In this document: piece after piece, positions 6,276-62,678 of the stretch
How the letters are laid out: the number at the start of each line of letters is the position of its first letter
Numbering within the stretch: position 1 is the first letter of the stretch
Source: Hydnum rufescens UP504
Taxonomy: Eukaryota; Basidiomycota; Agaricomycetes; Cantharellales; Hydnaceae
Direction of reading: 5' to 3'
Assembly (NCBI GenBank): GCA_014904985.1
Contig: MU129116.1
Coordinates: 39,045-103,044 of the forward strand
DNA length: 64,000 nt
Made by a program: the position numbers and the translations under genes
The notes under the pieces: model-generated
Told to the model about the DNA's origin: nothing
The model's database searches: none
What the model saw: the letters and a program-made list of their open reading frames with translations, nothing else

Positions 6276-8066
<1,791 letters not shown>

Positions 8067-10934: not shown

Positions 10935-11330
10935 TCCACAGCCACCTAAGACCCCATCTGAGAGGCAGGCCTGAGGGTCCCCCAACCTAGATGATGACAA
11001 ATAAACTATAGTACCACACATCTGCTGCAGTGGGTGTGTGGTACTATCTGGTGAGTTTCTCCTCAATGCCATGTACAATGGCACCAAAAGAGCAGCACCA
11101 GCTGCTCTTTTGGTGCTGCCTCTGTTTTATTTTTTTTACTAATGTATTATTCATTATTGTAGGTCCCTCCTTGTGCAAAACCCCACCTGATGAGAACACA
11201 GGCAAGCCCCAGGATGAACCACAAACATGCACAGCCACCCAAGACCCCATCCAAGAGCCAGCCCCAAAGATCCCAACCTATGCAATGACAAATAAAATAT
11301 GGCACATACCCACTGTGGTGAGTGTGGGCA
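10935..11330 (+). repeat. Outlying two-hairpin intron-like module, partly duplicated
   Basis: Hairpin A at 11011-11044 (outer stem GTACCACAC/GTGTGGTAC) is followed by ATCTG|GTGAGTTTC. Hairpin B at 11081-11116 has a perfect 16-bp stem (GCACCAAAAGAGCAGC and complement, loop ACCA). Next come TTTACTAATG, a branch-point match, and TTATTGTAG at 11162, giving a 112-nt intron-like unit at 11051-11162. The flanking C-rich body (ACAGCCACC...AAGACCCCATC...AACCTA...ATGACAAATAAA) occurs on both sides, so the body is tandemly duplicated. The downstream copy lacks hairpin B. Confidence 0.75.
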
Positions 11331-25020: not shown

Positions 25021-26982
25021 TTTTGTTTACTTCTAGGCATTGAACTCCCTTTTCAGGCAGAAAGGGAACAAAAGCCTACCATAAATGTAGAACACTCCAC
25101 ATTAGGACCAAACTAAGTGGAATAGGCTTAGAATATTATAACACTGACTATATCCAAAAATGAAATACATTGGATGTGTGGAAGTGGTTGAAATTCAGGG
25201 GGAGGGGGAGGAAGATCAAAAGTCAATTATATAAGATGTAGAGCAGAGGTAGCTCTAATATAATGCCAATAGGTTAATACACATATGGGGAGTATACATA
25301 CCAAATATCAGCCTGATTGGACTTCATCTAGGCACTATTCCACAGCACTCCCCCCTAAATAATAATTTCCTTGCCAGAGCCTTCCATCCATGCAATGGCC
25401 CTCAAAATTCACCCTTAGGTTATCCAAATACATTCATAACATTGCCCAAAATTTCAGATTCATCACTCCAGTGTGAGAGTTTCCATAATATTTTCAGGTT
25501 TCACTGACATACCCCCTCCAATTGGGGCACTTCCAGAGCTCCAATCACTCCCATTTTTTGTAGGCCACACCCGGCCACCATTTGAGGCTCAGGCCCAAAA
25601 TTTCAGCCCATTCTAAGCACTTTTGACATTGGTCACATGATCAAGATCCCCCCCTACAAAAAATGGGAGTGATTGGAGCTCTGGAAGTGCCCCAATTGGA
25701 GGGGGTATGTCAGTGAAACCTGAAAATATTATGGAAACTCTCACACTGGAGTGATGAATCTGAAATTTTGGGCAATGTTATGAATGTATTTGGATAACCT
25801 AAGGGTGAATTTTGAGGGCCATTGCATGGATGGAAGGCTCTGGCAAGGAAATTATTATTTAGGGGGGAGTGCTGTGGAATAGTGCCTAGATGAAGTCCAA
25901 TCAGGCTGATATTTGGTATGTATACTCCCCATATGTGTATTAACCTATTGGCATTATATTAGAGCTACCTCTGCTCTACATCTTATATAATTGACTTTTG
26001 ATCTTCCTCCCCCTCCCCCTGAATTTCAACCACTTCCACACATCCAATGTATTTCATTTTTGGATATAGTCAGTGTTATAATATTCTAAGCCTATTCCAC
26101 TTAGTTTGGTCCTAATGTGGAGTGTTCTACATTTATGGTAGGCTTTTGTTCCCTTTCTGCCTGAAAAGGGAGTTCAATGCCTAGAAGTAAACAAAATAAA
26201 CTGATTCTTGGCACATATTTATTTGATTACATGGTAATACTCCATGTAAAATTTCAAGTCCATATCTTGTCTGTAGGGGGAGTAAATCAATTTTCAAGGT
26301 TGAAACCTATTTGCCTCATATCTGTGTACATACTGCATGGATTTGGCTGAAAATTGAATATGTTCTTTGCCTGAGTAGTGTCTAATCACATGCCAAGTTT
26401 CAGAATGGTCTGCTCATTGGGTATTTTTTGGCAATTTTCACTGCCTCTGGTATCCATTGTCCAGTTCCCTACCTTAAAGTGGGTGGATTGGGATGATTTT
26501 TGGCACATAATTAGTACATTATATCATCATACTGTGCAAATTTTCAAGTTCCCAGGTATTCTGTAAGGGGAGGAAATTAATTTTCAGTGTCCAAACTTGA
26601 TTTCCTCATATCTCAATACCTACTGATCGGAATTGGCTGAAATTTTAATATGTTCTTTGCCCTAATAGTCCCCAATCATGTGCCAAATTTCAGAATGAAC
26701 CGCCCAGCAGTTCAGATCCGGCAAGTTTCGCAATTTCTGGTATTCATTTTACTGCCCCTATCTCTCCAGGCACTAGCCACTTGCTCTGGGCCTGGTGTCT
26801 TCACTCAGCCAGGGTCCTTAGGGGTCCCTCCACCCATCCCAGGCACCTGGTCCTGGGCCTCCACTGGGCTGGATGGCTAAATATTATTTGGATGTACTTC
26901 ATCCAATTTCCGCATTTAGGCTTTTTTTAAATAAGAAACACTTTATTATGTAACTGGATATCCAAAGTTATTATGGGATATT

Positions 26983-35106: not shown

Positions 35107-35433
35107 GTTAGGTCAGGGGGGAACCCAATTGTGTGTCTGTGAGGTCCCTCAAATCATCAACAGGAGGAGGAGTGTAATATAGAGCCCCAATTCTTTAAGT
35201 ATATACTTGTTGCGTCCTGTTTGTATCTTACATAATAGCATGGCCGCGAGGATTCTAAGTCCCAGCAGCGCCAGAATCAAAGGTACTCTTTTGCCCAGAC
35301 TTTGTAGCCTCTGCTCAAACTGTGAAACCAATGTAGCCATGCAACAACTATGTGACCAAGTCATGCAATGAAGCAACCACATCAAGACCTGCGATCTGTC
35401 GCCACAGAGCATGGGGCAGAGACAGATAAGGGG
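35107..35433. other. Unassigned sequence before satellite
   Basis: No gene or recognised repeat beyond the LTR end. Confidence 0.4.
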
Positions 35434-37035
35434 GGTGCATTCTGTGCGCCCAAATCACAGCCTTTCAACACACCTACTTTCAGTGTTTTCTGAGAACTTC
35501 TGGCCTCACAGTTCCTCATCTTCCCCTCATCTCCCACTCAACATCACCTGGGGGGGTCAAATCATGGCCAATTTTGATGTTATTGGGGTCAATCAATTTG
35601 TCTCATTCATCTGAATCCGTCAAGCATATTTATGTGATGAACCAACCACTTTCCACTGTGCTATCCTCAATCTTCCATTTTGGGTTCATGTGCCCCCCCT
35701 GGGGGCTAGGTGTTGTTGCTCAGGCTGTGTGTGGGTGCATTCTGTGCACCCAAATCACAGCTTTTCAACACACCTACTTCCAGTGTATTCTGAGAACATC
35801 TGGCCTCACAGTTCCTCATCTTCCCCTCATCTCCCACTCAACATCACCTGGGGGGGTCAAATCATGGCCAATTTCAACGTTCTTGGGGTCAATCAATTCA
35901 TCTCATTCGTCCAAATCCATTGAGCATATTTATGCAATGAACCAACCCCTTTCCACTGCACTATCCTCAATCTTTCATTTTGGGTTCATGTGCCCCTCCT
36001 GGGGGCTAGGTGTTGTTGCTCAGGCTGTGTGTGGGTGCATTCTGTGCGCCCAAATCACAGCTTTTCAACACACCTACATCCAGTGTATTATGAGAACGTC
36101 TGGCCTCACAGTTCCTCATCTTCCCCTCATCTCCCACTCAACATCACCTGGGGGGGTCAAATCGTGGCCAATTTTGATGTTCTTGGGGTCAATCAATTTG
36201 TCTCATTCATCCAAATCCATCAAGCATATTTACGTGACGAACCGACCACTTTCCACTGTGCTATCCTTAATCTTCCATTTTGGGTTCATGTGCCCCCCCT
36301 GGGGGCTAGGTGTTGTTGCTCAGGCTGTGTGTGGGTGCATTCTGTGTGCCCAAATCACAGCTTTTCAACACACCTACATCCAGTGTATTCTGAGAACATC
36401 TGGCCTCACAGTTCCTCATCTTCCCCTCATCTCCCACTCAACATCACCTGGGGGGGTCAAATCATGGCCAATTTCAATGTTCTTGGGGTCAATCAATTCG
36501 TCTCATTTGTCCAAATCCATTGAGCATATTTATGCAATGAACCAACCCCTTTCCACTGTGCTATCCTCAATCTTTCATTTTGGGTTCATCTGCCCCTCCT
36601 GGGGGCTAGGTGTTGTTGCTCAGGCTGTGTGTGGGTGCATTCTGTGCACCCAAATCACAGCTTTTCAACACACCTACATCCAGTGTATTTTGAGAACATC
36701 TGGCCTCACTGTTCCTCATCTTCCCCTCATCTCCCACTCAACATCACCTGGGGGGGTCAGATCATGGCCAATTTCGACATTCTTGGGGTCAATCAATCTT
36801 CCTCATTTGTCCAAATCTGTCAAGCATATGTATGTGACAAACCGACCACTTTCCACTGCGCTATCCTCAATCTTCCATTTTTGGTTCATGTGCCCCCTGG
36901 GGACCAGGTGTTGTTGCTCAGGCTGTGTGTGGGTGCATTCTGTGCACCCAAATCACAGCTTTTCAACACACCCACTTCCAGTGTATTATGACCACTTCTG
37001 GCCTCACAGTTCCTCATCTTCTCCTGTCACCAATG
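35434..37035 (+). repeat. 300-bp satellite, about 5.3 copies
   Basis: The landmark GGTGCATTCTGTG recurs at about 35434, 35734, 36034, 36334, 36634 and 36932, an almost exact 300-bp period, with units differing by a few percent. Each unit contains CTCAACATCACCTGGGGGGGTC and TGTTGTTGCTCAGGCTGTG. Because 300 is a multiple of three, one frame (about 35574-37121, 515 codons) stays open across all units with a 100-residue repeat; a second frame is open for one to two units at a time. Confidence 0.95.
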
Positions 37036-49735: not shown

Positions 49736-50722
49736 TATAGAAGAAGGATTGGGAGCTCTGATGACTGTCAAATCAAACTCTGGTTCAGCCAGTGTGTAGA
49801 TGGGAGACTGTATTTCTGTTTTTATTCAATGGGCTGGTTCGCTCTGATGGTTGATCACTCTCTAACAAGTTGTGTATGGTATTCAGTGAAGGATAAGATT
49901 GTGGTATGGACTAGCTATAGTCAATGATATATCGAGGGATGCTTGTGGAAGGCTTATATGTGTTGTATTGAACTGTTTACTGCTATTTGTGTGTACCTAT
50001 TTGTGTCCTCCTGGTCAAAATGCAGATTCTAAAGAGGGCTCTAGACTAGTTTAAGCTTGATTTAGTATGTCAATGTGTTTCTCTCTTCTTCTGACTTAAC
50101 TTTGTTATCACTCACCTTTCCTTGGATGACCAGCAACTCTAACCTTAGGTCCTGCAACTATCCTTGGCTCAGTATTTCATGTAGAGGGCTTCCAGTGACT
50201 TAATCTTAACAACCTTGTATATGACTTAGCTCCAGATGGCTTTCAGATCAGTACTCTCTTCAGATGCAAGCAGATTTGTAGACAGTAGTATATTCCAGTA
50301 GTGAGAAGATGGGGGGATACAGGAAAATCTACCAGCTTTTATACCTTTCTGAAGGTGGCTGTGTTTAAAGAATATGACTCACTCCTAGGTGAGTCATATG
50401 TGAGAACAATAGGGTTGTCAAGGAGGGTGAGTCATTCATAAGGTGGTTGCATGATAGGTGAGTCATTCATAAAGTGGTTGCAAGGAAGGTGAGTCATTCA
50501 TAAACAGAACAAAAGGGTAGTCAAGGAGGTGTTATCTTTCTTATCTGTGAGGTTCTAGAAGTTATTTGTGGCAATGGGAGATGAAATCAAAGGATATTTC
50601 TGAGTTCTTGGAGATTAATTTGTTTGTAGTCCAGTGGTTAAGATGTTTTTGTTGCTGGTTGATAATGGGGACAAGTGCATGGGATGGGATTCGATGCAGA
50701 AACAACAGTTTGCATCCGTAAT
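49736..50722 (+). repeat. Tandem repeat unit 2 with tRNA-like end
   Basis: Directly repeats unit 1 from TATAGAAGAAGGATTGGGAG to the tRNA-like end at about 50628-50722 (TAGTCCAGTGGTTAAG and GGGATTCGATGCAG, about 50 nt apart). Unit 2 keeps the CpG of the B box that unit 1 has lost. A tRNA-derived SINE inserted within, or forming the end of, a larger repeat would explain this. Confidence 0.7.
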
Positions 50723-51776: not shown

Positions 51777-54233
51777 TCTAATCAGTGCATTTTGTTGTTA
51801 CAGACTTGTGGAATTTTGTTTTATACAGGCTATGACTTTGTTTCTTTTGACTTGTTGTTTTTCTTTTGATTTTGATTGATTTTTTTTTTTTTTGACAAGT
51901 TCACATCACCAGGCAAGGTCAGTTTTAAGAAAAAGATTCAAGCAACATAAAGGCTTTCAGACTTTGAGAGAAATGAGAGTCAGGAGAAATGGACATTGTT
52001 TTGCCAACAGGCAACATATTTTTACATGGAGAGAAAGAAGGGCAAAGGAGGGGTTTTTCCTTCAGGTGAGAGAGATGGTACATTGGGGTGAGCACATATT
52101 TCTTTTTGTTTTTAATGAGAGAGAGAGGAAGAGGATAGGGGAAGGAGGGGAGAGGATAGAGGACTGCATTGGGTGAGGCATGTGTACTGCGAGACAAGGA
52201 TGAGTTGTGGTGATGGGCTACCAACCATTTGCATCATCATCTGATTCATCAGTCACTGGGTTGGATGGAAGTTCCGTTAGTTCATACACAGTCAGGGTGT
52301 CCTTAAATTTGGCCCATTTGTCATCCTTTAGGTTGTACTGAATGTCATGCATGTATTTCTTATAATATTCAACAGCTCAGTCATCGGTCGAGATGGAAGG
52401 GGCAAGATTGTGTGGAGTGTGGAGGGATTCAGATAACTTTGCAAGTGTGGGAGTGATGCAACAATGAAGGACAAATGCTGTGTATGGGGTGTCTAAGTGA
52501 TGCTGCTGTCAGCACAATATCTGCTGCTTGGATAAAGATTTTAGTGAGATGGTTGACTTGTGTAACATGGTGATACATAGATGGATAGAGTAACTGATTG
52601 CACCAATTGGTTACACACTGCTCATATTGTAAGAGTTTGAGGTTGTGTCTGTTGAGGTCTTTGGCTTTCACCTTGAGGTTGGCTTCTTGTTGATGTAGGG
52701 TTGCCAAAAGAAGAGAGAGGGGTGGCATGAGAGAATCCATTTGAAGGTTGTGATTGGCAATGGTATGACTTAACTGGTCAAGAAGTTCTGTGTTGTCCCC
52801 TATATCCTCCTTTCACTTCTCTTCATACTCGCATTGGATCTCGTCAAGTTTCTGCACTGCATTGTACTTGCAATCTATAATTGCTTGTTGATAGGATGGC
52901 CATGTGCAGTAAGAGTTGGCATTTTTACCAGGTCGTGGTATACTGATTCTTCAAAGGCTGTGGGGTGTGCAAGGAGGCTGGGAAGGAGAATAGGACCAAT
53001 GGGAAGGGTGATATGAAGAACAGGTGCTTTTCGAGGTGAGGGATCCTGTGGGAGAGTCTGAGGATTCATGCAACTGCTGTGTGGTAGGAGTTGTCTGGCG
53101 ACTGATGATGTTCTTCTGAATCAATTCAGGTTCTTTCGAGGGTTGAGTGGGAAGAGGAATGGACAGAGGAAGTATAGTGCATGGGTAGAGATTAATGGTC
53201 TGGGGACACAATGTGAGGCAAGGGTTGATGGTTTGCTGGGTTTCAAGCCCTGTGATTGGCTGCACATTGGTAAAGGATTCATTGATATTGTAATTCTTGA
53301 CAATAGCATGTGAAGAGGAGATAGAGTCAGGCCAAAAGGTCTGATTTGTCATTAGTGATGTCTTTTTTTTGGTTGACTTGTGTTCCATACCTCATTGGTT
53401 ACATTTTGTTCCTTTTTGACTTGAGATGAAAGGAAGATGTCCCCATCCAGGTTGAGTTCTACAAGTGGTGTGGGTGGAGTAGGGGAGGGAGCAGGTGTTT
53501 GGATGTATTAGAATGTATAGCTTTGAACAGAGGTCACAGTTGAATCGAAATGAGTGGAGTCGGACATGTTGAGAGAGGATGGCTTTGACAAGGTATGATG
53601 GTCATGGAAAGTGGGTATACTCATGTTTGATGTTATTTGGCCATTCCTTGTTGTAGTTGAGATATCAGCTGAGATAATTTAGTTGACAGGTTGATGGAGT
53701 TGTTGTGTGTGGATGATACATACCGAATGGAATAAGAATGGGAAGATGAAGGGTCGCCAGAGTCCATTATGCCATATTTTTAAGTTAGACTTCATGGCAG
53801 TCAGTCAGGAGTGTGGAGGATTACATAGCCATATAGAGAGAGGAACCAGAAGGGGAGGGGTGTCAATTTTTGATGTGGCTGCTGTAGAAGGATAAAGTAA
53901 AAGAGAGGATCTGATTTATGCATTTAGGGGTCTAGGAAATGCGGCTGTGAAAAGAATCACATGATCAGAAAAGTGGAGAAGGTCCTAGAAAGAACAAGGG
54001 ATGGAATATTAGATTGCAATAGAAACCTCTAGAATGGTAAGGAAGTTAGATGGAGGAATGATAGAATGTTCTAGAATGGGTCCTTAAAGGTATAAATATC
54101 CCTGCTATCTGGCATGGTAGAACAACAAATCCAACACTAGGACTAGCTAGTAGAAGTTTGTCTCATAGATAGCTTCCTCTGAATCATAGTGATTGACTGT
54201 TCCCTGGTATCAAACCTTGTAAATTCCACCTTC
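51777..54233. other. Unassigned, several non-matching open frames
   Basis: Minus-strand open frames at 52740-52429 (103 codons) and 53388-52951 (145 codons, Thr/Pro/Ser-rich) have no motif I recognise; they could be remnants of a retrotransposon gag. A T run of about 15 lies near 51880. Nothing else supported. Confidence 0.35.
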
Positions 54234-54355
54234 GGTCAGCCACTTGGACTGATCTCAAAAGGCATGTCGAACCACATCAAATTAATTGCCTATGAGGCAT
54301 CAAAATCCTTTGATCTCAAATAATTTCAACAGGGTGACCTTAGGTCAATCTGTAA
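54234..54355 (+). repeat. Dispersed short repeat, diverged copy 3
   Basis: GGTCAGCCACTTGGACTGAT, CTCAAAAGGCATG and later CCTTAGGTCAATCTG follow the order of the 10106-10213 copy, with substitutions. Confidence 0.55.
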
Positions 54356-54585
54356 GTCTGCCCATAGGCATTTTGATATCAAACTCATATTTGGCTTGGG
54401 GTATCAGGATAGGCCCCGGCAAGCCCAGGAATGCCCCCAAGCGGGTCAACAGGCCATACGGGCTTATCAGCAACTATGATTATTTAGTTATTATTGTTTA
54501 TTCTCATGGATAATTATTAATTTATTATATACACATGTATCTATGGGTGTGTGTTTCATTCACTGGTTCTGGTTCAGGCGATGTC

Positions 54586-54720
54586 CTAGAAAAATCATTA
54601 AGATGTTAGTTAAAATTTATAACCATGCAAAAAGAGCAGCAAATGCTGCTCTTTTTGCGTGGTTGCATACACTACTTACCTTGGCGGTTTTTTGGCGGTA
54701 GTATTGCTGGGATGTGGTGT
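54586..54720 (-). repeat. Module L1
   Basis: Minus strand: degenerate hairpin A near 54700, CCAAG|GTAAGTAG at 54679, hairpin B with a perfect 14-bp stem GCAAAAAGAGCAGC (about 54627-54658), TTTTAACTAAC, and TTTTTCTAG ending at 54586. Intron-like length 94 nt. Confidence 0.8.
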
Positions 54721-54913
54721 ACTGCCTGCTGTCCCCACGGATTTGTCCGTTGGATTCCTCGCTCGTGTGCAGTCATAAGACCCACAGAAGGGGACGCGCA
54801 TTCGAGGCAAAGGGAGGGAGGGGGCTGCGTAAATTCGAGGCTGGGGGTACACTGGTTCGAGGTGGGGGGGGTTGCAATCGCTCGAGGGGGGCGCATAGGA
54901 CTAGCAATTGACT

Positions 54914-55050
54914 CTATAATGAAAATAAAACTTGTTGTCAGTAAAAAATCAAAGGAGGGCAAAATGGGCAGCTTAGAGCTGCCCATTTTGCTCAAGATTT
55001 GTGGCTATACTTGCCTCATCACCACACCCTAGCAATGCTAGGGTGTGGTG
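54914..55050 (-). repeat. Module L2
   Basis: Hairpin A stem CCACACCCTAGC (55020-55048) with full complement; GATGAG|GCAAGTAT at 55014, a GC-type 5' site; hairpin B stem GCAAAATGGGCAGC; TTTTTACTGAC; CATTATAG ending 54914. Length 101 nt. Confidence 0.8.
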
Positions 55051-55152
55051 TACTCCTTAGGGCGGTCTGTCATAAGACCTGGGGTCGTGGGCGACAACGG
55101 CGATATTGTCGTCGTTTGAGGGGTAAGGTGGACGGGTGGCTATCGCGATGGC

Positions 55153-55253
55153 CTATATTAAAGACACGGAAGAGGCAGCTTAAAGCTGCCCCTTGTGCAT
55201 AGCAAACGTACTTTACCTTAACACCACATCCCAGCTATGCTGGGGTGTGGTGT
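55153..55253 (-). repeat. Module L3, short
   Basis: Hairpin A stem ACCACACCCCAGC with one mismatch; TTAAG|GTAAAGTA at 55216; hairpin B GGGGCAGC/GCTGCCTC with a G-U wobble; AATATAG at 55153. Only 64 nt, and no clear branch-point motif. Confidence 0.7.
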
Positions 55254-55511
55254 ACTGGGGGTGCTCCTGTGGGTTCGTGCTTCAGATTCCCCCCTTATAT
55301 GTGGTCACAAGACCCGTAGGCCGTAGAGGGGGTCTGTTCGTTTGGGGCTGAGGGTGGGTTTATTTCATTTGGGGTGGGGTGGGCGTATTTCATTTGGGGC
55401 AGGTTGGGGAGTGGCATAAAATCCGTAATCATTACAACAACGATGATCTCATCGTCATTGTCGCCATGTCGTCATTCAGGGGGCAGGGCTAGTAAGGGTG
55501 ATGGGGATAGT

Positions 55512-55645
55512 CTATAATGAAAATAGAGCATTAGTAAAAAAGTAAAGCAGCACAAAGGAGCAGCTCTAAGCCGCTCCTTTCGTGCATAAGGAACCACGAA
55601 TTTACCTTAATACCACACCCCAGCATTTCTGGGGTGTGGTGTACT
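55512..55645 (-). repeat. Module L4
   Basis: Hairpin A stem CCACACCCCAG; TTAAG|GTAAATTC at 55605; hairpin B GGAGCGGC/GCTGCTCC with a G-U wobble; TTTACTAATG; CATTATAG ending 55512. Length 94 nt. Confidence 0.8.
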
Positions 55646-55821
55646 GCCGTGGGCTCCTGTGGGTCCGGATCCCTCGCTCGTACGTGGCCGTTCGAGGTTG
55701 AGGAGGGGGGGGGGGCTGCGTGCATTCAAGGCTGAGGGGTTGCATACGTTTGAGGTTGGGGGGTGAGATCATTCGAGGGTGGGGGCTGTGGCCGGGGTCA
55801 GGTGTGTTGGTACTGACGATC

Positions 55822-55955
55822 CTATAATGGAGGGGGTTCTTATTATTAGTAGACTTAAAGTGGGGGAAAATGGGCGGCTTAAAACCACCCATTTTGCCCC
55901 AGAATCATAATACTTACCGCATCCCACACCCCAGTGATGGGGGGTGTGGTGGATG
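55822..55955 (-). repeat. Module L5
   Basis: Hairpin A stem CCACACCCC; GATGCG|GTAAGTAT at 55917; hairpin B AAAATGGGTGGT/GCCGCCCATTTT with two U-G wobbles; TCTACTAAT; CATTATAG ending 55822. Length 96 nt. Confidence 0.8.
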
Positions 55956-56088
55956 GTTTATCGCATTCGCGACTTCTGTCTTTGGGTCCATTGGTCCCGT
56001 GGAACCAGGGATTCTCGACAACGACAATGATGTAGCATCATCATCATCATCGTTCGAGTTGGGGGTGCATGGGTAGTTGCAGTCGCGC

Positions 56089-56215
56089 CTAACAATGAAA
56101 CCTTATCAGTAAAAAATTAAATACACACAAAAAGGGGCAGCTTAAAGCTGCCCCTTCCACATAAGATGGAACCCGAGAAGCAAGAACTCGCCTTGCGTCC
56201 CAGCTTTCGGCTTTT
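56089..56215 (-). repeat. Module L6, hairpin A degraded
   Basis: CGCAAG|GCGAGTTC at 56191 (GC-type 5' site); hairpin B stem AAGGGGCAGC perfect; TTTACTGAT; CATTGTTAG ending 56089. Length 103 nt. Hairpin A is reduced to a weak AAAGCCGAAAGCT remnant. Confidence 0.65.
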
Positions 56216-56599
56216 CTAATGGCAGAGTGGGATGGAAAGAAACAACATATCGAGGACCTGAAGATGCCTTCACAATAACTATGAAGCAAGTTGCATTATA
56301 TTAGTACAATATGCAGACACTATATCATGAACCAACACACATCGATCGTCATCAAGCTGTTTGAGAATTTCGGCAATGATTTGGCTGACGGATTGCATGG
56401 CCTTGAGGCCATCTTCTGTCTTTTCATATTCTTTCTTGAGATCCCTCGAAGAAAATCAAACTACATTACGCGGTATAATCAGCATAGATCTTTTGTCACT
56501 TAGAAAGTGTACTGACGGGTCTTCCAGCGCTCGCTCATAGTCTTATGTTCACATAGTTTCTATGCAGAGGAATCTTTGTGAGTACACTCCCAATATACC

Positions 56600-56662
56600 A
56601 GCCACCGTGCACTCACTATGATATCTCTACAGCCCAGCTTTGCTGGGCTGTGGTGTACCATT
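56600..56662 (-). repeat. Module L7, partial
   Basis: Hairpin A only: stem ACAGCCCAGC with full complement (56629-56658), followed on the minus strand by CATA|GTGAGTGC. No hairpin B or 3' site follows. Confidence 0.55.
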
Positions 56663-56789
56663 CATTGTACTCGCAACTTCGGTTGTCAGTTGGATCAGTC
56701 ATGTGGCTGTGGAGCCCGGAATCCTTGACAACGATGACGACGACGTCATCACCGTTCAGGGTGGGGTGCCTAGACAATCGCGATACTGC

Positions 56790-56935
56790 CTACAATGAAA
56801 AGGATTCAAAGCGTTAGTAAAAATTAAGCAGTGCACAAGGAGCGGCTTAAAGCCACTCCTTGTGGGGAAAGGGGTAAAAATTACATGCCTTATCCGCACC
56901 CCACCATTCTGGGGTGTGGTGGTGTTCACTTCGGC
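56790..56935 (-). repeat. Module L8
   Basis: Hairpin A stem CACACCCCAG-like at 56895-56925; ATAAG|GCATGTAA at 56888 (GC-type); hairpin B AAGGAGTGGC/GCCGCTCCTT with a U-G wobble; TTTTTACTAACG; CATTGTAG ending 56790. Length 99 nt. Confidence 0.75.
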
Positions 56936-57225
56936 CTTGGCATCATTGGTGGGGTATCACAAGATGGTGACTGGGTGAAGCCGAAACTCAATGTCAACAC
57001 GTGCCGGGTTCTGAAAGCGCCAAACCACTCATCAGTAGTAATACACCACAATGCATTGGGTCAACTATATACGAGCGGTACACCATAAACTTAATAATAA
57101 TATATTCCACATTTTTAATATTCCGAGTCAGTGCTTGGCTGCAATGCTCATCCTGGCAATTGCCGGCATTGAGTCACGTTTCTTTCTCGCAACCTAATAA
57201 GGAAACCACCCAAACAGGGAAAGAC

Positions 57226-57371
57226 GACCACACCCCTGCCGATGCGGGTGTGTGGTCGCAAGGTGAGTTTTCTTTATTGTAGTAGATACAACAGCACAAA
57301 AAGAGCAGCGAAAGCTGCTCTTTTTGCACTGCATTGAACTTGTTTACTGACACAGCACTTTTTATATAGAT
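57226..57371 (+). repeat. Module R1
   Basis: Plus strand: hairpin A outer stem GACCACAC/GTGTGGTC (57228-57259); CGCAAG|GTGAGTTT at 57265; hairpin B stem AAAAAGAGCAGC with a GAAA tetraloop (about 57299-57328); TTTACTGAC; TATATAG ending 57371. Length 107 nt. Confidence 0.85.
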
Positions 57372-57534
57372 CGTGACCTGGTCCTAGGGACCAGTTGAGA
57401 ATCAGCCAAACAATGAGGACCCGACTGCCAGGGCCCAAACAGGATTGAGAATGCGAGAAAGGGGACCGCAACAACGTGACGAACACGACCAACGCAACCA
57501 CGACAGACAATAACGCGCCCAGTGAGTGGCCGCA

Positions 57535-57679
57535 CGAACCCCACACCCGCTATGGCGGGCATGTGGTTCTCTACATAAGATGGCTCCCCCCCCAATGTAT
57601 CCAGCCGCGCAAAAAGAGCAGCGAACGCTGCTCTTTTTGCACTGGTTTTAATTTCTAACTAACATAAATATTTTTCTAG
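57535..57679 (+). repeat. Module R2, 5' site altered
   Basis: Hairpin A around CCACACCCGC/GCGGGCATGTGG; the position of the 5' site reads ATAAGATGGCT, so the GT is lost; hairpin B stem AAAAAGAGCAGC with GAAC loop (about 57608-57638); TTTCTAACTAAC; TTTTTCTAG ending 57679. Confidence 0.7.
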
Positions 57680-57926
57680 GTTATCCCCTACCCTATAATC
57701 GACAAAATGAAGAACCGCCCAACAAGAACGAATGGAATGGACGCCTGCCAAACGAAGGACCTGCCAAATGAACCCCAAGCCCCCCGAAACCACAGCCCAC
57801 AACACGAACATGCGCCAGATGGTAACCCGCGCACCAAAGGCCATACGCCCAATAAAAACTGCGTAGGCGAAGGATCACCAACCAGACGAAGGCACGAAAC
57901 AACGCAGAGCCAACGAGTGGCTCCAG

Positions 57927-58063
57927 GAACCACACACCTGCCACAGTGGGTGTGTGGTTCCACAAGATAAGTTTTATTTTTTGTTTTGTGGTGCAAGAAG
58001 AGCAGCGTAAGCTGCTCTTCCTGCGATCTTTAATATTTGACTAACCCGTTTATTTTTTTTTAG
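57927..58063 (+). repeat. Module R3, 5' site altered
   Basis: Hairpin A with a 12-bp outer stem GAACCACACACC; CACAAG|ATAAGTTTT has AT instead of GT; hairpin B stem GAAGAGCAGC with GTAA loop (57993-58024); TTGACTAACCC; TTTTTTTTTAG ending 58063. Confidence 0.7.
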
Positions 58064-58271
58064 CTTTTAGACTCGCACCTGCACGAACCCCCATTCCCCA
58101 ATCTGCCAAGCCAAACCCTGCACCCCCAACCTCACTGAACAAAGACCCGGTGAGCAAAACCCCGCCCAGTGATACGCTAAACAACCCACCCCCCCTTCCC
58201 ATACAACATGACCAAAAAAACCACAAAAACGCGACCAACACAAGATGACAACACACGCAGTGAACGGCCGT

Positions 58272-58425
58272 GAACCACACACCCGCCCCGGCGGGTGTGT
58301 AGTTCTATATAAGGTGAGTCCCCCCCCAGTATATACAGCCGCGCAAAAAGAGCAGCTTCGCTGCTCTTTTTGCGCTGGTTTTAATTTTTAACTAATCTTT
58401 TCTTTTTATTGTATATCATGAAAAT
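58272..58425 (+). repeat. Module R4, 3' site missing
   Basis: Hairpin A stem ACCACACACCCGCC with one mismatch (58272-58305); ATAAG|GTGAGTCC at 58314; hairpin B stem GCGCAAAAAGAGCAG (58341-58375); TTAACTAATC; a clear terminal AG is not seen. Confidence 0.65.
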
Positions 58426-58530
58426 CCGCCCAACGAGAACCCGGGGATACGCCAGACGACCCCTCCTCCCCTTCCCATATGCATCAACCCACACAAATGA
58501 AGATGCGCGAAATGAAAACCCAGGAAATCC

Positions 58531-58680
58531 ATACACCACACACCCACTGAGGCGGGTGTGTGGTGATTCTTTAAAGTAAGTTCTTTTTATCTATGTGTAC
58601 CATCGCCCAAAAGGAACAGCCAGCGCTGTTCCTTTGTGCGACCTTTTTCTTTTTTTCTTTGTCTACTAATGTTATTTGAA
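58531..58680 (+). repeat. Module R5, 3' site missing
   Basis: Hairpin A stem ACCACACACC (58533-58566); TTTAAA|GTAAGTTC at 58576; hairpin B AAAGGAACAGC/GCTGTTCCTTT (58604-58640); TCTACTAATG; no AG follows closely. Confidence 0.65.
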
Positions 58681-59079
58681 CACGAACCACCCCCAGCCCG
58701 ACCTGCAACCTGCATGAACCACCAAGCAAAGACCCGCTGAATCGAAACCCGCGACTCAGCCAAATGAAGCCTGCGAGCCAGCTGAGCGAAACCCACAATC
58801 CAGCCGAACAAAATACACAACACGGTGGCAGAACAGTGGGCCCCCCTGGATCCCTGGGGATGTCCAGCGACGGATGGATATAATACAACTTGTGTATAAT
58901 AATAATAATAGTATTTAAATGAATATTAATAATATGTTGATACATATCAGAGGTGGTAACTTACCATAGGGTAAGACACTGTGTTTATATGCTAATTAAG
59001 CATGGTACCATACCATAATTGATATATCTATACTGTAAATGAAACCCCGGCGAGCGATGACCCAACAAATGGCGGGTGA

Positions 59080-59200
59080 GTAACACAGGAATGACACCCA
59101 CTGCGGCGGGTGTGTTAGTGTAAGGTCTTTTTTATTGTATTAGATACAGTTGCACAGAAGGAGCAGCTCTGGCTGCTCTTTCTGTGGTACTGGTGAGCCA
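59080..59200 (+). repeat. Module R6, degenerate
   Basis: Hairpin A ACACCC/GGGTGT around 59093-59112; GTAAGGTCTTTT follows; hairpin B stem CACAGAAGGAGCAGC with one G-U wobble and TCTG loop (about 59152-59186). Downstream splice-like signals are not clear. Confidence 0.55.
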
Positions 59201-59343
59201 TCGGCTCACCGGATGTATGTGTATAATAAATAAATCAATAATAATAATAATAATAATAGTATTTGAATATTAGTAATCATATGCTATCCCTGGGATAGCA
59301 TGAATTATCACAGGAGCTTTGTGGGTTTTTAGCCTATAATCTT

Positions 59344-61020
59344 ATGGCCAGGGCTGCCAACTGGACTCCATTTAGGGAGTGCTCCACAGGCCCCCTAAAC
59401 AACAATTTCCTCCCCAGAGCCTTCCATCCATGCAATTGCCTTGAAAATGCACACTTGGGTCATCCAAACACATCTATAGCATCCCTCAAACTTTCAAATT
59501 CATGGCTCCAGTGCCAGAGTCTCCATAATATTTTCAAGTTTCACTGAAATACACCCTCCAGTTGGGACACTTCCAAAGCTCCAATCACTCTGATTTTTTG
59601 TAGGCCACACCTGCTCACCATTTGAGCCTCAGCCCCCAAATTTCAGCCCATTCTGAGGACTTTTGATATCTGTCACATGACCAAGATCTTCTCCTCCCCC
59701 TGCTTCACTCAGTCCTCTAGTTTGTATGGACTTTGTTGCCATTTGTAGTAGTAGTATGTGACAGTGTATGATTTAAATTTCAAGATATTCCATGCAATAT
59801 TCATGGAGTTATTCAAGAAACATTCCAGATCAATTCAATTTGGGGTCAGAACAGCAGTATTTCCACTAAATACCGCTGTTCTGACCCCAAATTGAATTGA
59901 TCTAGAATGTTTCTTGGATAACTCCATGAATATTGCATGGAATATCTTGAAATTTAAATCATACACTGTCACATACTACTACTACAAATGGCAACAAAGT
60001 CCATACAAACTAGAGGACTGAGTGAAGCAGGGGGAGGGAAAGATCTTGGTCATGTGACAGATATCAAAAGTCCTCAGAATGGGCTGAAATTTGGGGCTGA
60101 GGCTCAAATGGTGAGCAGGTGTGGCCTACAAAAAATCAGAGTGATTGGAGCTTTGGAAGTGTCCCAACTGGAGGGTGTATTTCAGTGAAACTTGAAAATA
60201 TTATGGAGACTCTGGCACTGGAGCCATGAATTTGAAAGTTTGAGGGATGCTATAGATGTGTTTGGATGACCCAAGTGTGCATTTTCAAGGCAATTGGATG
60301 GATGGAAGGCTCTGGGGAGGAAATTGTTGTTTAGGGGGAGGCCTGTGGAGCACTCCCTAAATGGAGTCCAGTTGGGCTGATATCTGTCATGTGCACTCCC
60401 CACATATGTATTAACTCAGTGATGCAATATCAGAGCCACCCCTGCTCTACATCTTATGTAATGGACTTTTGATCTTTCTTCCCCTCCCCCTCAATTTCAG
60501 CCACTTCCACACATCCAATTAATTCCATTTTCAGATATAGTCAGGGTTATAATATTATAAGCCTATTCCACCCAATTCAGGTCTATTTTAAACTGCTTAA
60601 CATTCATGGTAGCTTTTTGTTCTTTTTTTGCCTGAAAAGGGAGTTGAATACCTAGGAGCAAACAGAATAAGCTGATTCTTGGCACATGTTTAGTTAACTA
60701 TGTGGTCATACCCCATGTCAAATTTCAAGTCCATACCTTCTCTGTGAGGGGAGTAAATTTATTTTCAATATTTAAACTCATTGTCCTTATAGCTCTGTAA
60801 TTAATGAATGGATCTGGCTGAAATTTTAGTATGATTTGCATAGAAGTAGCCTCTAACCATGCACCAAATTTCAGAATGATCTGCTTAGCACTTATTTGGA
60901 TGTACTTCATCCAATTTCTGCATTTAAGCTTTTTTTAATGGGAATCACTGTATTATGTAATGGGATATTATCCAAAGTTATTATGGAATATTATCTAATG
61001 TACCCTTTTATATTGGTCTA
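59344..61020. mobile_element. Diverged relative of the palindromic element
   Basis: 59344-60385 is an inverted repeat centred at about 59864, with only about 4-5 nt between arms (AGCAGTATTT...AAATACCGCT). Its outer part is recognisably homologous to 25330-25640 and the mirrored region. The right side continues to 61020 (GGATGTACTTCATCCAATTT, then TCTAATGTACCCTTTT, a decayed ACCTAATGCACCCT end), while the left side stops at 59340. Thus one arm is truncated. Confidence 0.8.
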
Positions 61021-61185
61021 TCTGGTTACTGCATTTAGGCTTTTTCATAGCAGCAGGTGGCTTGCCTTTGAAACTGGGCAACTGCCGGTGTTGAGTCCCG
61101 GGTTCAATTTACTGGCAATTGCCGGCAATTTTTTTCTGTTGTGCGACACCACACCACCTCCATCCACCAAGAGCCCAGGACAAGC

Positions 61186-61330
61186 CACCACACCCCAGTA
61201 TAGACTGGGGTGTGGTGTTAAGGTATGTTATTGTAACTTTAGCTACTCTAGTATGAAAAGGGCAGCCTCTGGCTGCCCTTTTTGCACTACTATTGATTTT
61301 TTGAACTAACCCATTGTCCCCCCATTATAG
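61186..61330 (+). repeat. Module R7
   Basis: Hairpin A perfect 14-bp stem CACCACACCCCAGT, loop ATAG (61186-61217); TTAAG|GTATGTTA at 61223; hairpin B AAAAGGGCAGC/GCTGCCCTTTT (about 61256-61284); TTGAACTAACCC; CATTATAG ending 61330. Length 108 nt. Confidence 0.85.
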
Positions 61331-62678
61331 GATCCCCCTAAGTGTACACCCAGGGCCCCTGTCCCCCCTGGTGGCCCCTCTACCCCCTCCCCACCCCTTG
61401 AGTTGGTCTGGGGCAGGGGTGCTCCCTCTTGTCGGCACTGGTGTAGTAATGCAACCTGGATTATGTAATCAATTAGGTAATATGTATATTAGGTAATAGG
61501 TATTATGTAATATATTTAATTATATCATCAACTAATTATGTAATTTAATATTATGTAATATTATTGTTGTGCACAATTATGTCACTGCTGTTTTGGGTGG
61601 ATTACATCATTTCCTATTTAGGATATTAGGTAATTGACAGGTCGGCCAGTGGTATTCCAGAGTTCTACAAGTAAAAGTTCCAAGTCCCTACTTTGATCTC
61701 AAATTGATGTCAAAACTATGTCAAACTGCACTTGTTCGATATAAAGGCCCATTTTGATCAATATTTGATATCAAAGAGAACACAGGCCTATTAGGTCCTA
61801 TACAAACATCAAAATGACATGCCTTTTGAGATCAATGGAAGTGTCTGACCAGCCTGGTAAATTCACCTTGCCAGTGCAATTAAGTACCTCTGGTGTGGTC
61901 CAGCTAGTGAATGGAACATGTGTAGTCCCACTAGTTGTAGAATAGCCCACTATAGTTAAAGCTCACTTGTATCTGAATCTGAATCTAAACCCAGGCATAG
62001 TGATCTGGTAAATACTGCATATCCAATACAGGCATAGTGACCTGATACAACCTCTCACCTGGACTCCAAGTAGCCGGAACCTTTGATTACATAATATGCG
62101 GATATTGACACAATTGACATAGCACTACAGGCCATTACTCTCTTACAACACTAGACCACTACCTTTCCAGTTTGTCTCATCCTTCCTTGACTTGACTCAG
62201 AGTCATACCACTTCTCCCTGAGGACCTCTATTGTGCCTTCTTGTCCAAGTCTGCAGCTTGCAAGTTGTAAGGTATTAATATCGTTCCACCTCAGTAGCGT
62301 GCAGTTCCTGCATACCTCTCCCACCTTCTTATAGCTTCTAGCTACACCTAGTGTACTTAGAGCATCCTGTGAAACCTTGCACCATTCTCACTGACTAAGA
62401 CTGAGGCTCGAGTTGGACAGCTTGCCCTCGGAGTTCTGTGGTCATACAACCTCACCCATAAAACTCTTCTACAAATTCTGGTGGTCCTTACAGGGGAAAG
62501 TATTCCTTTCTAAGTAACACAAACACTTGATTCCAAACTGGAAGGTTTCACTCATATTAGTGAATCCAACTCTCCACTGAGCACACCCAGTGAGCTGGAC
62601 TCAGAAATCAGTGCTCCAAACCAAGACTTCCGAAACACACCTATTCCTGCAGCTCTTAAATCCACTACAGTCTTAAAC
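61331..62678. other. AT-rich flank and possible retrotransposon leader
   Basis: 61445-61560 is an AATTATGTAATATTA-type low-complexity run. 61680-61850 holds a diverged inverted copy of the 10106 repeat. 61900-62678 lies upstream of a gag frame and may contain its LTR and leader, but no LTR boundaries can be set from one copy. Confidence 0.45.

Follow-up and report, generated by a model that had tools for sequence, protein, structure and literature searches.

The window analysed here is a stretch of 64,000 nucleotides (nt) from the genome of Hydnum rufescens UP504 (contig MU129116.1, positions 39,045 to 103,044), and coordinates refer to it unless another locus is named. At 54227-61856 it holds a 7.6-kb element that encloses an array of intron-like modules (54586-61330). 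The same 8-bp direct repeat, GTAAATTC, lies on both flanks of the element, and its terminal repeats match in inverted orientation over 35 nt. A first-pass annotation of the sequence had described about 15 modules of one shared order, in which a hairpin (A) precedes a donor-like site and a second hairpin (B) lies inside the intron-like segment that follows, which closes with CTAAC or CTGAC and a TAG. The copies and their order are real: a covariance model and a hairpin scan together recover 15 modules, of which 13 have both hairpins, one lacks hairpin A and one lacks hairpin B. What that description left out is that the array is split into two opposed arms and has partly decayed. The left arm (54.6-56.9 kb) has its modules on the minus strand, the right arm (from 57.2 kb) has them on the plus strand, and the two thus point away from a centre.

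The covariance model was built from an alignment of 32 modules (33 were selected for it), six of which are the window array's own, and was applied with a cut-off of 42 bits. Thirteen array modules exceed this cut-off, those starting at 54622, 54954, 55161, 55547, 55860 and 56828 on the minus strand and those at 57226, 57537, 57928, 58273, 58534, 59090 and 61186 on the plus strand. In the remainder of the window the model finds one lone module with hairpins A and B, at 11012 (11008-11162). The parts of the element are as follows, with a slash in each donor marking the predicted exon-intron junction.

54219-54226, no strand: left target-site duplication GTAAATTC; identical 8 bp at 61857-61864.
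54227-54268, plus: left terminal repeat CACCTTCGGTCAGCCACTTGG...CATGTC; 35-nt pattern, inverted at both ends, chance 0.
54508-54545, minus: AT-rich outer tail of the left arm, a possible RNA 3' end signal, from its sequence and comparison with the tails of other copies.
54586-54679, minus: predicted intron AAG/GTAAGT..CTAAC..TAG of the outermost left module; hairpin B 54621-54664.
54914-55014, minus: predicted intron GAG/GCAAGT (GC donor); hairpin B 54957-54993, hairpin A 55020-55050.
55161-55252, minus: module with hairpins A and B, donor AAA/GTACGT; covariance model 44.7 bits.
55512-55605, minus: predicted intron AAG/GTAAAT; hairpin B 55554-55580, hairpin A 55612-55640.
55860-55951, minus: module with hairpins A and B, donor GCG/GTAAGT (read from the sequence); 45.5 bits.
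56089-56191, minus: predicted intron AAG/GCGAGT, hairpin B only.
56629-56651, presumably minus, as the rest of its arm: hairpin A with no hairpin B partner, from the hairpin scan.
56790-56888, minus: predicted first intron of the left arm, AAG/GCATGT; hairpin B 56834-56864.
56925-57223, no strand: centre between the divergent arms, missing the long palindrome of other copies; its right edge of about 70 bp, with GGCAATTGCCGGCATTGA, is 81% like L007.
57263-57369, plus: predicted first intron of the right arm, AAG/GTGAGT..CTGAC..TAG; hairpin A upstream, hairpin B 57292-57331.
57537-57679, plus: module whose donor, AAG/ATGGCT, has decayed (read from the sequence; the script picked a word within hairpin A); acceptor TAG; hairpin B 57607-57642.
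57967-58063, plus: predicted intron with decayed donor AAG/ATAAGT; hairpin B 57993-58024.
58273-58378, plus: module with good donor AAG/GTGAGT, hairpins A and B, no acceptor in range.
58534-58696, plus: module with donor AAA/GTAAGT, hairpin B 58610-58635, only a distant CAG as acceptor.
59090-59270, plus: terminal module of the right arm, holding both hairpins, followed by a GGTGAGCC/GGCTCACC hairpin and a (TAA)n tail; L008 and L019 have a terminal hairpin and an AT-rich tail arranged similarly.
61056-61330, plus: separate first-exon-like stretch with GGCAATTGCCGGC; hairpin A 61186-61217; predicted intron 61223-61330.
61816-61856, minus: right terminal repeat, reading CAGGCTGGTCAGACACTTCC.. 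inward.
61857-61864, no strand: right target-site duplication GTAAATTC.

A 1-kb palindrome (59357-60375), probably inserted separately, stands between the module at 61186 and the rest of the array. This near-perfect palindrome (97.6% identity half to half) has relatives at 25238-25979 of the window and at L015 3016-4180 and, at the search level used, does not match the array centres; it is probably a fold-back element of its own, nested in the array.

The array is not a product of chance, since the core of hairpin B occurs 4921 times genome-wide against once for the reversed control, and modules fold with an energy 6 to 11 standard deviations below that of shuffled sequences (tested on four modules, two from the window). 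Of 21 predicted pairs in the alignment of 32 modules, 14 show changes on both sides that preserve pairing. At roughly ten cores per element, the 4921 copies suggest that the genome carries several hundred such elements, which is an estimate.

The same divergent plan recurs at other loci of this genome (L005-L009, L011 and L018-L020), where the stretches read show as many as nine predicted introns in one arm. Nine loci (L005-L009, L011, L012, L018 and L019) have a central palindrome of 0.4-1.1 kb whose halves are 84-99% identical. Only in L005 and L007, of eight loci, is each half more similar to its partner than to every other copy; with results this mixed, we make no claim of concerted evolution. 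The right arm in the window, like one arm each of L008 and L019, ends with a terminal hairpin and then an AT-rich (TAA)n tail, which possibly mark the end of an RNA. A short palindrome close to ATATGACTCACCTAGGAGTGAGTCATAT also recurs, at 50372-50399 of the window, L005 8176-8203, L012 5000-5027 and L014 5563-5590.

Element borders were first defined by comparing the near-identical L008 and L019, where they are sharp and accompanied by 8-bp duplications, and the same search was then made in the window. All three duplications match at 8/8 positions (window GTAAATTC, L008 GGTTACCA, L019 AGTTAAAC); that of L020 has 7 bp. In a further test on 10 of 32 listed end pairs, picked by spacing before their flanks were read, three pairs matched at 8/8 (one of them counting a base shared with the element end) and one at 7/8, as against at most 6/8 in 90 controls with mispaired ends. 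At L009 7246-7688, an array element contains an inverted block of about 440 bp, flanked by one left-type and one right-type end. We read it as a by-product of transposition with mixed ends, as if the ends of different copies had moved together.

The ends point to a transposon family. Genome-wide, the end word CAGGCTGGTCAGNCA is present 691 times and CACCTTGGTCAGNCA 456 times, with none for the reversed controls, and the genome holds at least 154 matches to the KDZ (Kyakuja-Dileera-Zisupton) transposase (PF18758) and 90 to hAT (PF05699). We compared transposase and end positions on contigs C1-C26 among the matches listed (150 of 154 KDZ matches, and about the first 100 places per end word). Within this set, 7 of 23 KDZ matches are followed, 1.6-2.3 kb downstream, by an inward CAGGCTGGTCAGNCA (CAGG) end, whereas the 3 kb downstream of each of 17 hAT matches contain no inward exact end of either type. 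An assignment to hAT, which the 8-bp duplications and CA ends had led us to suspect, was rejected because none of these 17 listed hAT matches adjoins such ends. Beyond the 15-nt word, the right end of the window element is 71% and 73% identical to ends beside two KDZ genes (shuffled maximum 0.60). According to the parts of Kojima 2025 available to us (PMC12730594), Zisupton elements make 8-bp duplications and Kyakuja elements 7-bp duplications with CA..TG ends. Because its right end resembles KDZ-side ends and its ends and duplications fit this description, the window element is, as judged from sequence, most likely a non-autonomous KDZ-type transposon. The idea that the modules are introns of transposase genes was rejected, as the covariance model finds no module in 12 KDZ or hAT transposase loci of about 3.5 kb. 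Many of the KDZ matches contain internal TGA stops, which may reflect C-to-T decay of these copies.

The order of signals within the modules resembles that of spliceosomal introns. Genome-wide, an exact AAGGTGAGT lies 10-40 nt upstream of the hairpin-B word GAGCAGC 822 times (413 + 409; reversed control 1 + 1). The opposite arrangement, GCTGCTC followed by AAGGTGAGT, which would place the donor downstream of hairpin B, is found 0 + 0 times (reversed control 1 + 1). These counts are free of the filter for a sense-strand donor that shapes the locus-based comparison, in which donors number 114/122 in sense and 4/122 in antisense among modules so pre-filtered. To predict introns, 320 hairpin-B candidates on both strands were reduced to 147 with donor and acceptor, 143 after strand conflicts and 136 after refinement, of which 122 have a recognisable hairpin A. 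The best-scoring donor was taken each time, so that the resulting list leans to good donors: 126 of the 136 predicted introns begin with GT, four with GC and six otherwise, the most frequent words being GTGAGT (49), GTAAGT (29), GTATGT (13) and GTACGT (4). Predicted introns have a median length of 105 nt, the central 90% spanning about 93-121 nt, and in 109 of the 122 modules with a recognisable hairpin A, this hairpin stops 7-11 nt short of the donor. Base composition switches with the predicted boundaries, from 11.1% T in exon bodies (76 exons of at most 320 nt) to 44.6% in introns minus hairpin B, compared with 27.2% in 15 kb of outside DNA.

To follow diversity along the element, a 181-nt query from one element was searched through the genome, giving 40 scored full matches that resolve into 25 loci, one of them the query. 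Of 25 aligned rows (one reference and 24 loci), one was dropped for gaps, which leaves 24 copies including the reference. The alignment spans 345 nt and two introns, and copies entered it by overall similarity and not by their splice sites. Over all sites, mean diversity is lowest in the splice signals (0.036) and hairpin B (0.041) and higher in hairpin A (0.105), the exons (0.130) and the rest of the intron (0.105). Against exon plus other intron (0.1145), permutation gives p 0.0024 for the splice signals and p 0.001 for hairpin B, values that are only a guide because sites in copies sharing ancestry are not independent. At non-CpG sites the values are 0.0025 for splice signals (p 5e-5), 0.0069 for hairpin B, 0.0435 for hairpin A, 0.073 for exons and 0.074 for other intron; the CpG filter also drops variable donor positions of the first intron, which makes this splice figure the favourable one. 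All 24 copies have AAGGTGAGT as the donor of the second intron. We conclude that exon sequence drifted in the lineages that went on multiplying, whereas their splice signals and hairpin B were retained. The splice reading of the first-pass annotation is thus upheld at the level of sequence, both by the position of the donor relative to hairpin B and by the conservation of the splice sites and that hairpin above all other parts.

Whole elements, rather than single introns, multiply today: for 121 of 136 modules the nearest relative lies in another element (with L009 and L011 each split into two elements), and module order matches in the copies compared, L008 with L019 and L020 with L011. The products carry little trace of protein coding. 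When arms were spliced in silico, 20 of 22 had an open frame no longer than those of shuffled sequences, and exon lengths modulo 3 divide as 27/35/30. With no signal in these 20 arms, we rejected a protein-coding reading. A gene built of repeated exons, which the first-pass annotation had listed as an option, does not fit this result or the dispersed copies with terminal repeats. A tandem non-coding RNA, another option, does not fit copies that are dispersed elements with such ends.

Taken together, these data lead us to favour, with reasonable though far from complete confidence, a 7.6-kb element with KDZ-type ends and two divergent arrays of hairpin introns, which is likely moved in trans and whose predicted outward transcripts would be spliced and non-coding. 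A KDZ transposase encoded elsewhere would act in trans to mobilise it. Transcription would start at the centre and run outward as two units, and the predicted transcripts would be spliced into non-coding RNA. Within an intron of 105 nt, hairpin B may shorten the distance between donor and branch point. Because the exons change as freely as the rest of the intron and the splice signals do not, the property under selection would be splicing itself, not the sequence of its product. The most probable gain would be efficient expression together with escape from silencing that is coupled to splicing, of the kind known in another basidiomycete, which would keep the chromatin accessible to the transposase. 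In Cryptococcus neoformans, the SCANR complex feeds inefficiently spliced transposon RNAs into RNA interference (PMC5851062, as far as the source was available), and introns raise RNA levels cumulatively (PMC3744415, likewise in part); with its well-signalled introns, the element would pass surveillance of the SCANR type. The purpose of splicing is the least certain part of this proposal, and evasion of silencing is our own suggestion, which we hold only tentatively. Tentative as well, and to our minds doubtful in this full form, is the wider idea of a transposon class with splicing as its cargo, in which two divergent units, each with up to nine hairpin introns and with T-poor exons of little sequence importance, would be maintained by selection solely for good splicing of their RNA. 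By resembling host genes, such an element would remain expressed and mobile under a silencing system that takes poor splicing as the sign of a transposon.

Several observations weigh against this reading. Hairpin A is no better conserved than exon plus other intron over all sites (0.105 vs 0.1145, p 0.35), and we rejected its conservation as a supporting feature; the loss of variable first-intron donor positions to the CpG filter, described above, counts here too. Hairpin mismatches over all modules show no preference for G-T over A-C (32 vs 48 in hairpin B, 56 vs 56 in hairpin A), and selection on pairing at the RNA level was rejected as a claim; in two orthologous introns, hairpin B has 13 G-T and 0 A-C, in a small and related sample. 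Donor-like words in exon bodies number 1, where base composition predicts 1.1, so that avoidance of cryptic donors was likewise rejected, there being no depletion beyond composition. The window copy itself is partly decayed, with several right-arm splice signals lost: its donors include AAG/ATAAGT at 57967 and, as the second of the right arm, AAG/ATGGCT, there is no TAG or CAG acceptor in range of the module at 58273, and the intron at 58576 needs a distant CAG. It also lacks the central palindrome, our guess for the promoter, and keeps only the edge of about 70 bp with GGCAATTGCCGGCATTGA; in L020 the palindrome is broken. Of the ten end pairs, six match at no more than 4/8 and so carry no duplication. 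Among the KDZ matches listed, 16 of 23 have no exact end nearby, a third KDZ-side end is 58% identical to the window's right end and not above its own shuffles, and no element holding both a KDZ gene and the arrays was seen in the stretches read. Both arms of L018, finally, have open frames (241 and 176 codons) longer than those of over 95% of shuffles. The L018 frames may be chance or a coding remnant.

The central palindromes and terminal repeats would also be at home in a DNA-level device, in which a fold-back transposon uses the hairpins and conserved words as cruciform sites or for transposase binding, their likeness to splice sites being incidental. The strand symmetry of the hairpin mismatches speaks for such a device. 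Yet a T-rich tract ahead of TAG is nothing that a DNA motif would require, and the donors are mostly acceptable to the spliceosome, the distances are those of short introns and the composition switches at the predicted boundaries; we therefore regard this explanation as rather unlikely. At the same nine loci, the palindrome has arms at least about 200 bp long and could also be read through to give long double-stranded RNA and small RNAs, which would make the arrays part of a silencing locus, and inefficiently spliced transposon RNAs do feed production of small interfering RNA in Cryptococcus (PMC5851062, seen in part). The window copy, however, has no palindrome, and splice signals near consensus are the opposite of what a silencing bait would need, which leaves a hairpin-RNA source very improbable.

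A different origin is conceivable for the introns themselves. Introners are intron-making, non-autonomous DNA transposons found in many eukaryotes (PMC9860276, from the text available), and each hairpin intron could be such a mobile unit, inserted repeatedly into a non-coding or decayed gene until the arrays became a graveyard of insertions. That the modules share one consensus across arrays could be explained by a single mobile ancestor, and an origin of this kind is possible for the array's first emergence. As an account of the present elements we find it distinctly unlikely, since 121 of 136 modules have their nearest relatives in other elements with order kept, the element has 8-bp duplications of its own, and the 12 transposase loci of about 3.5 kb contain no module. 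The arrays might also be a decayed or fast-evolving family of protein genes with repeated exons, captured as transposon cargo. Conserved splice signals and the long frames in both L018 arms would agree with this; the absence of an excess frame in 20 of 22 arms, exon lengths spread across three phases and exon diversity close to that of the intron interior (0.130 vs 0.105 over all sites, 0.073 vs 0.074 without CpG) leave it with hardly any probability.

The reading that we favour, a KDZ-ended element carrying hairpin-intron arrays, shares features with several known systems and differs from each. With KDZ transposons it has in common CA..TG ends, 8-bp (in some copies 7-bp) duplications and end sequences also found beside KDZ genes (PMC12730594, in the portion seen). 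It differs in that no transposase was found in the arrays and its cargo is two arrays of hairpin introns; that paper makes no mention of such arrays in the portion available, and words starting with 'hairpin' are absent from its main text. The statement of the first-pass annotation that the modules match no transposon is accordingly wrong for the ends, which resemble those of KDZ transposons; for the cargo we found no match. Introners and Introner-Like Elements resemble the arrays as introns of many copies, often spread by DNA transposition and bearing spliceosomal signals (PMC9860276, PMC4457414, both seen in part), and the term introner-type, also used in the first-pass annotation, captures the DNA-transposon basis and the intron signals carried. 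It misses the mobile unit, which, compared with the single intron in a host gene that these sources describe, is a two-armed element of many introns and exons with its own ends; membership among introners fails because it is these whole multi-intron elements that multiply.

Fold-back (FB) elements have long inverted halves and internal repeats. The array elements have both, but their repeats hold ordered, outward-facing splice signals on the two halves, and their ends and duplication length fit KDZ. The stwintrons of Hypoxylaceae are likewise repeated fungal spliceosomal introns; they differ in being nested introns, and the accessible text on them mentions neither terminal repeats nor non-coding arrays. 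In the literature covered, which excludes subscription journals and some preprints, we found no transposon with hairpin-intron arrays, consistent with the earlier designation of an undescribed genetic element. One strict hairpin-B pattern gave 0 matches in viral contigs, the sole other collection searched.

Elsewhere in the window, inverted ends of the CACCTTGGT(C/T)AGCCACTTGGGCTGACC type lie about 27 kb apart at 10095-37434, with no matching target duplication seen; between them are copia-like pieces, a Pex16-like gene and the lone module with hairpins A and B (11008-11162). At 35433-37025, a tandem repeat of five 300-bp units (91% matches) lies under a 563-codon open frame, which may encode a repeat protein or be a coincidence of a unit divisible by 3. 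A run of 103 consecutive C at 6276-6378 may be an assembly or a biological curiosity.

If the favoured reading is true, one genome would contain thousands of spliceosomal introns outside genes, carried by a DNA transposon as its cargo. Such arrays may be taken for multi-exon genes by pipelines for gene annotation and RNA-seq. They would also offer a natural series comprising a great many intron variants, with selection bearing on splicing and scarcely on what it produces. They would allow a direct test of whether splicing shields transposons from silencing, and tests of whether hairpins within introns aid the recognition of short introns and whether these elements are a reservoir from which genes gain new introns.

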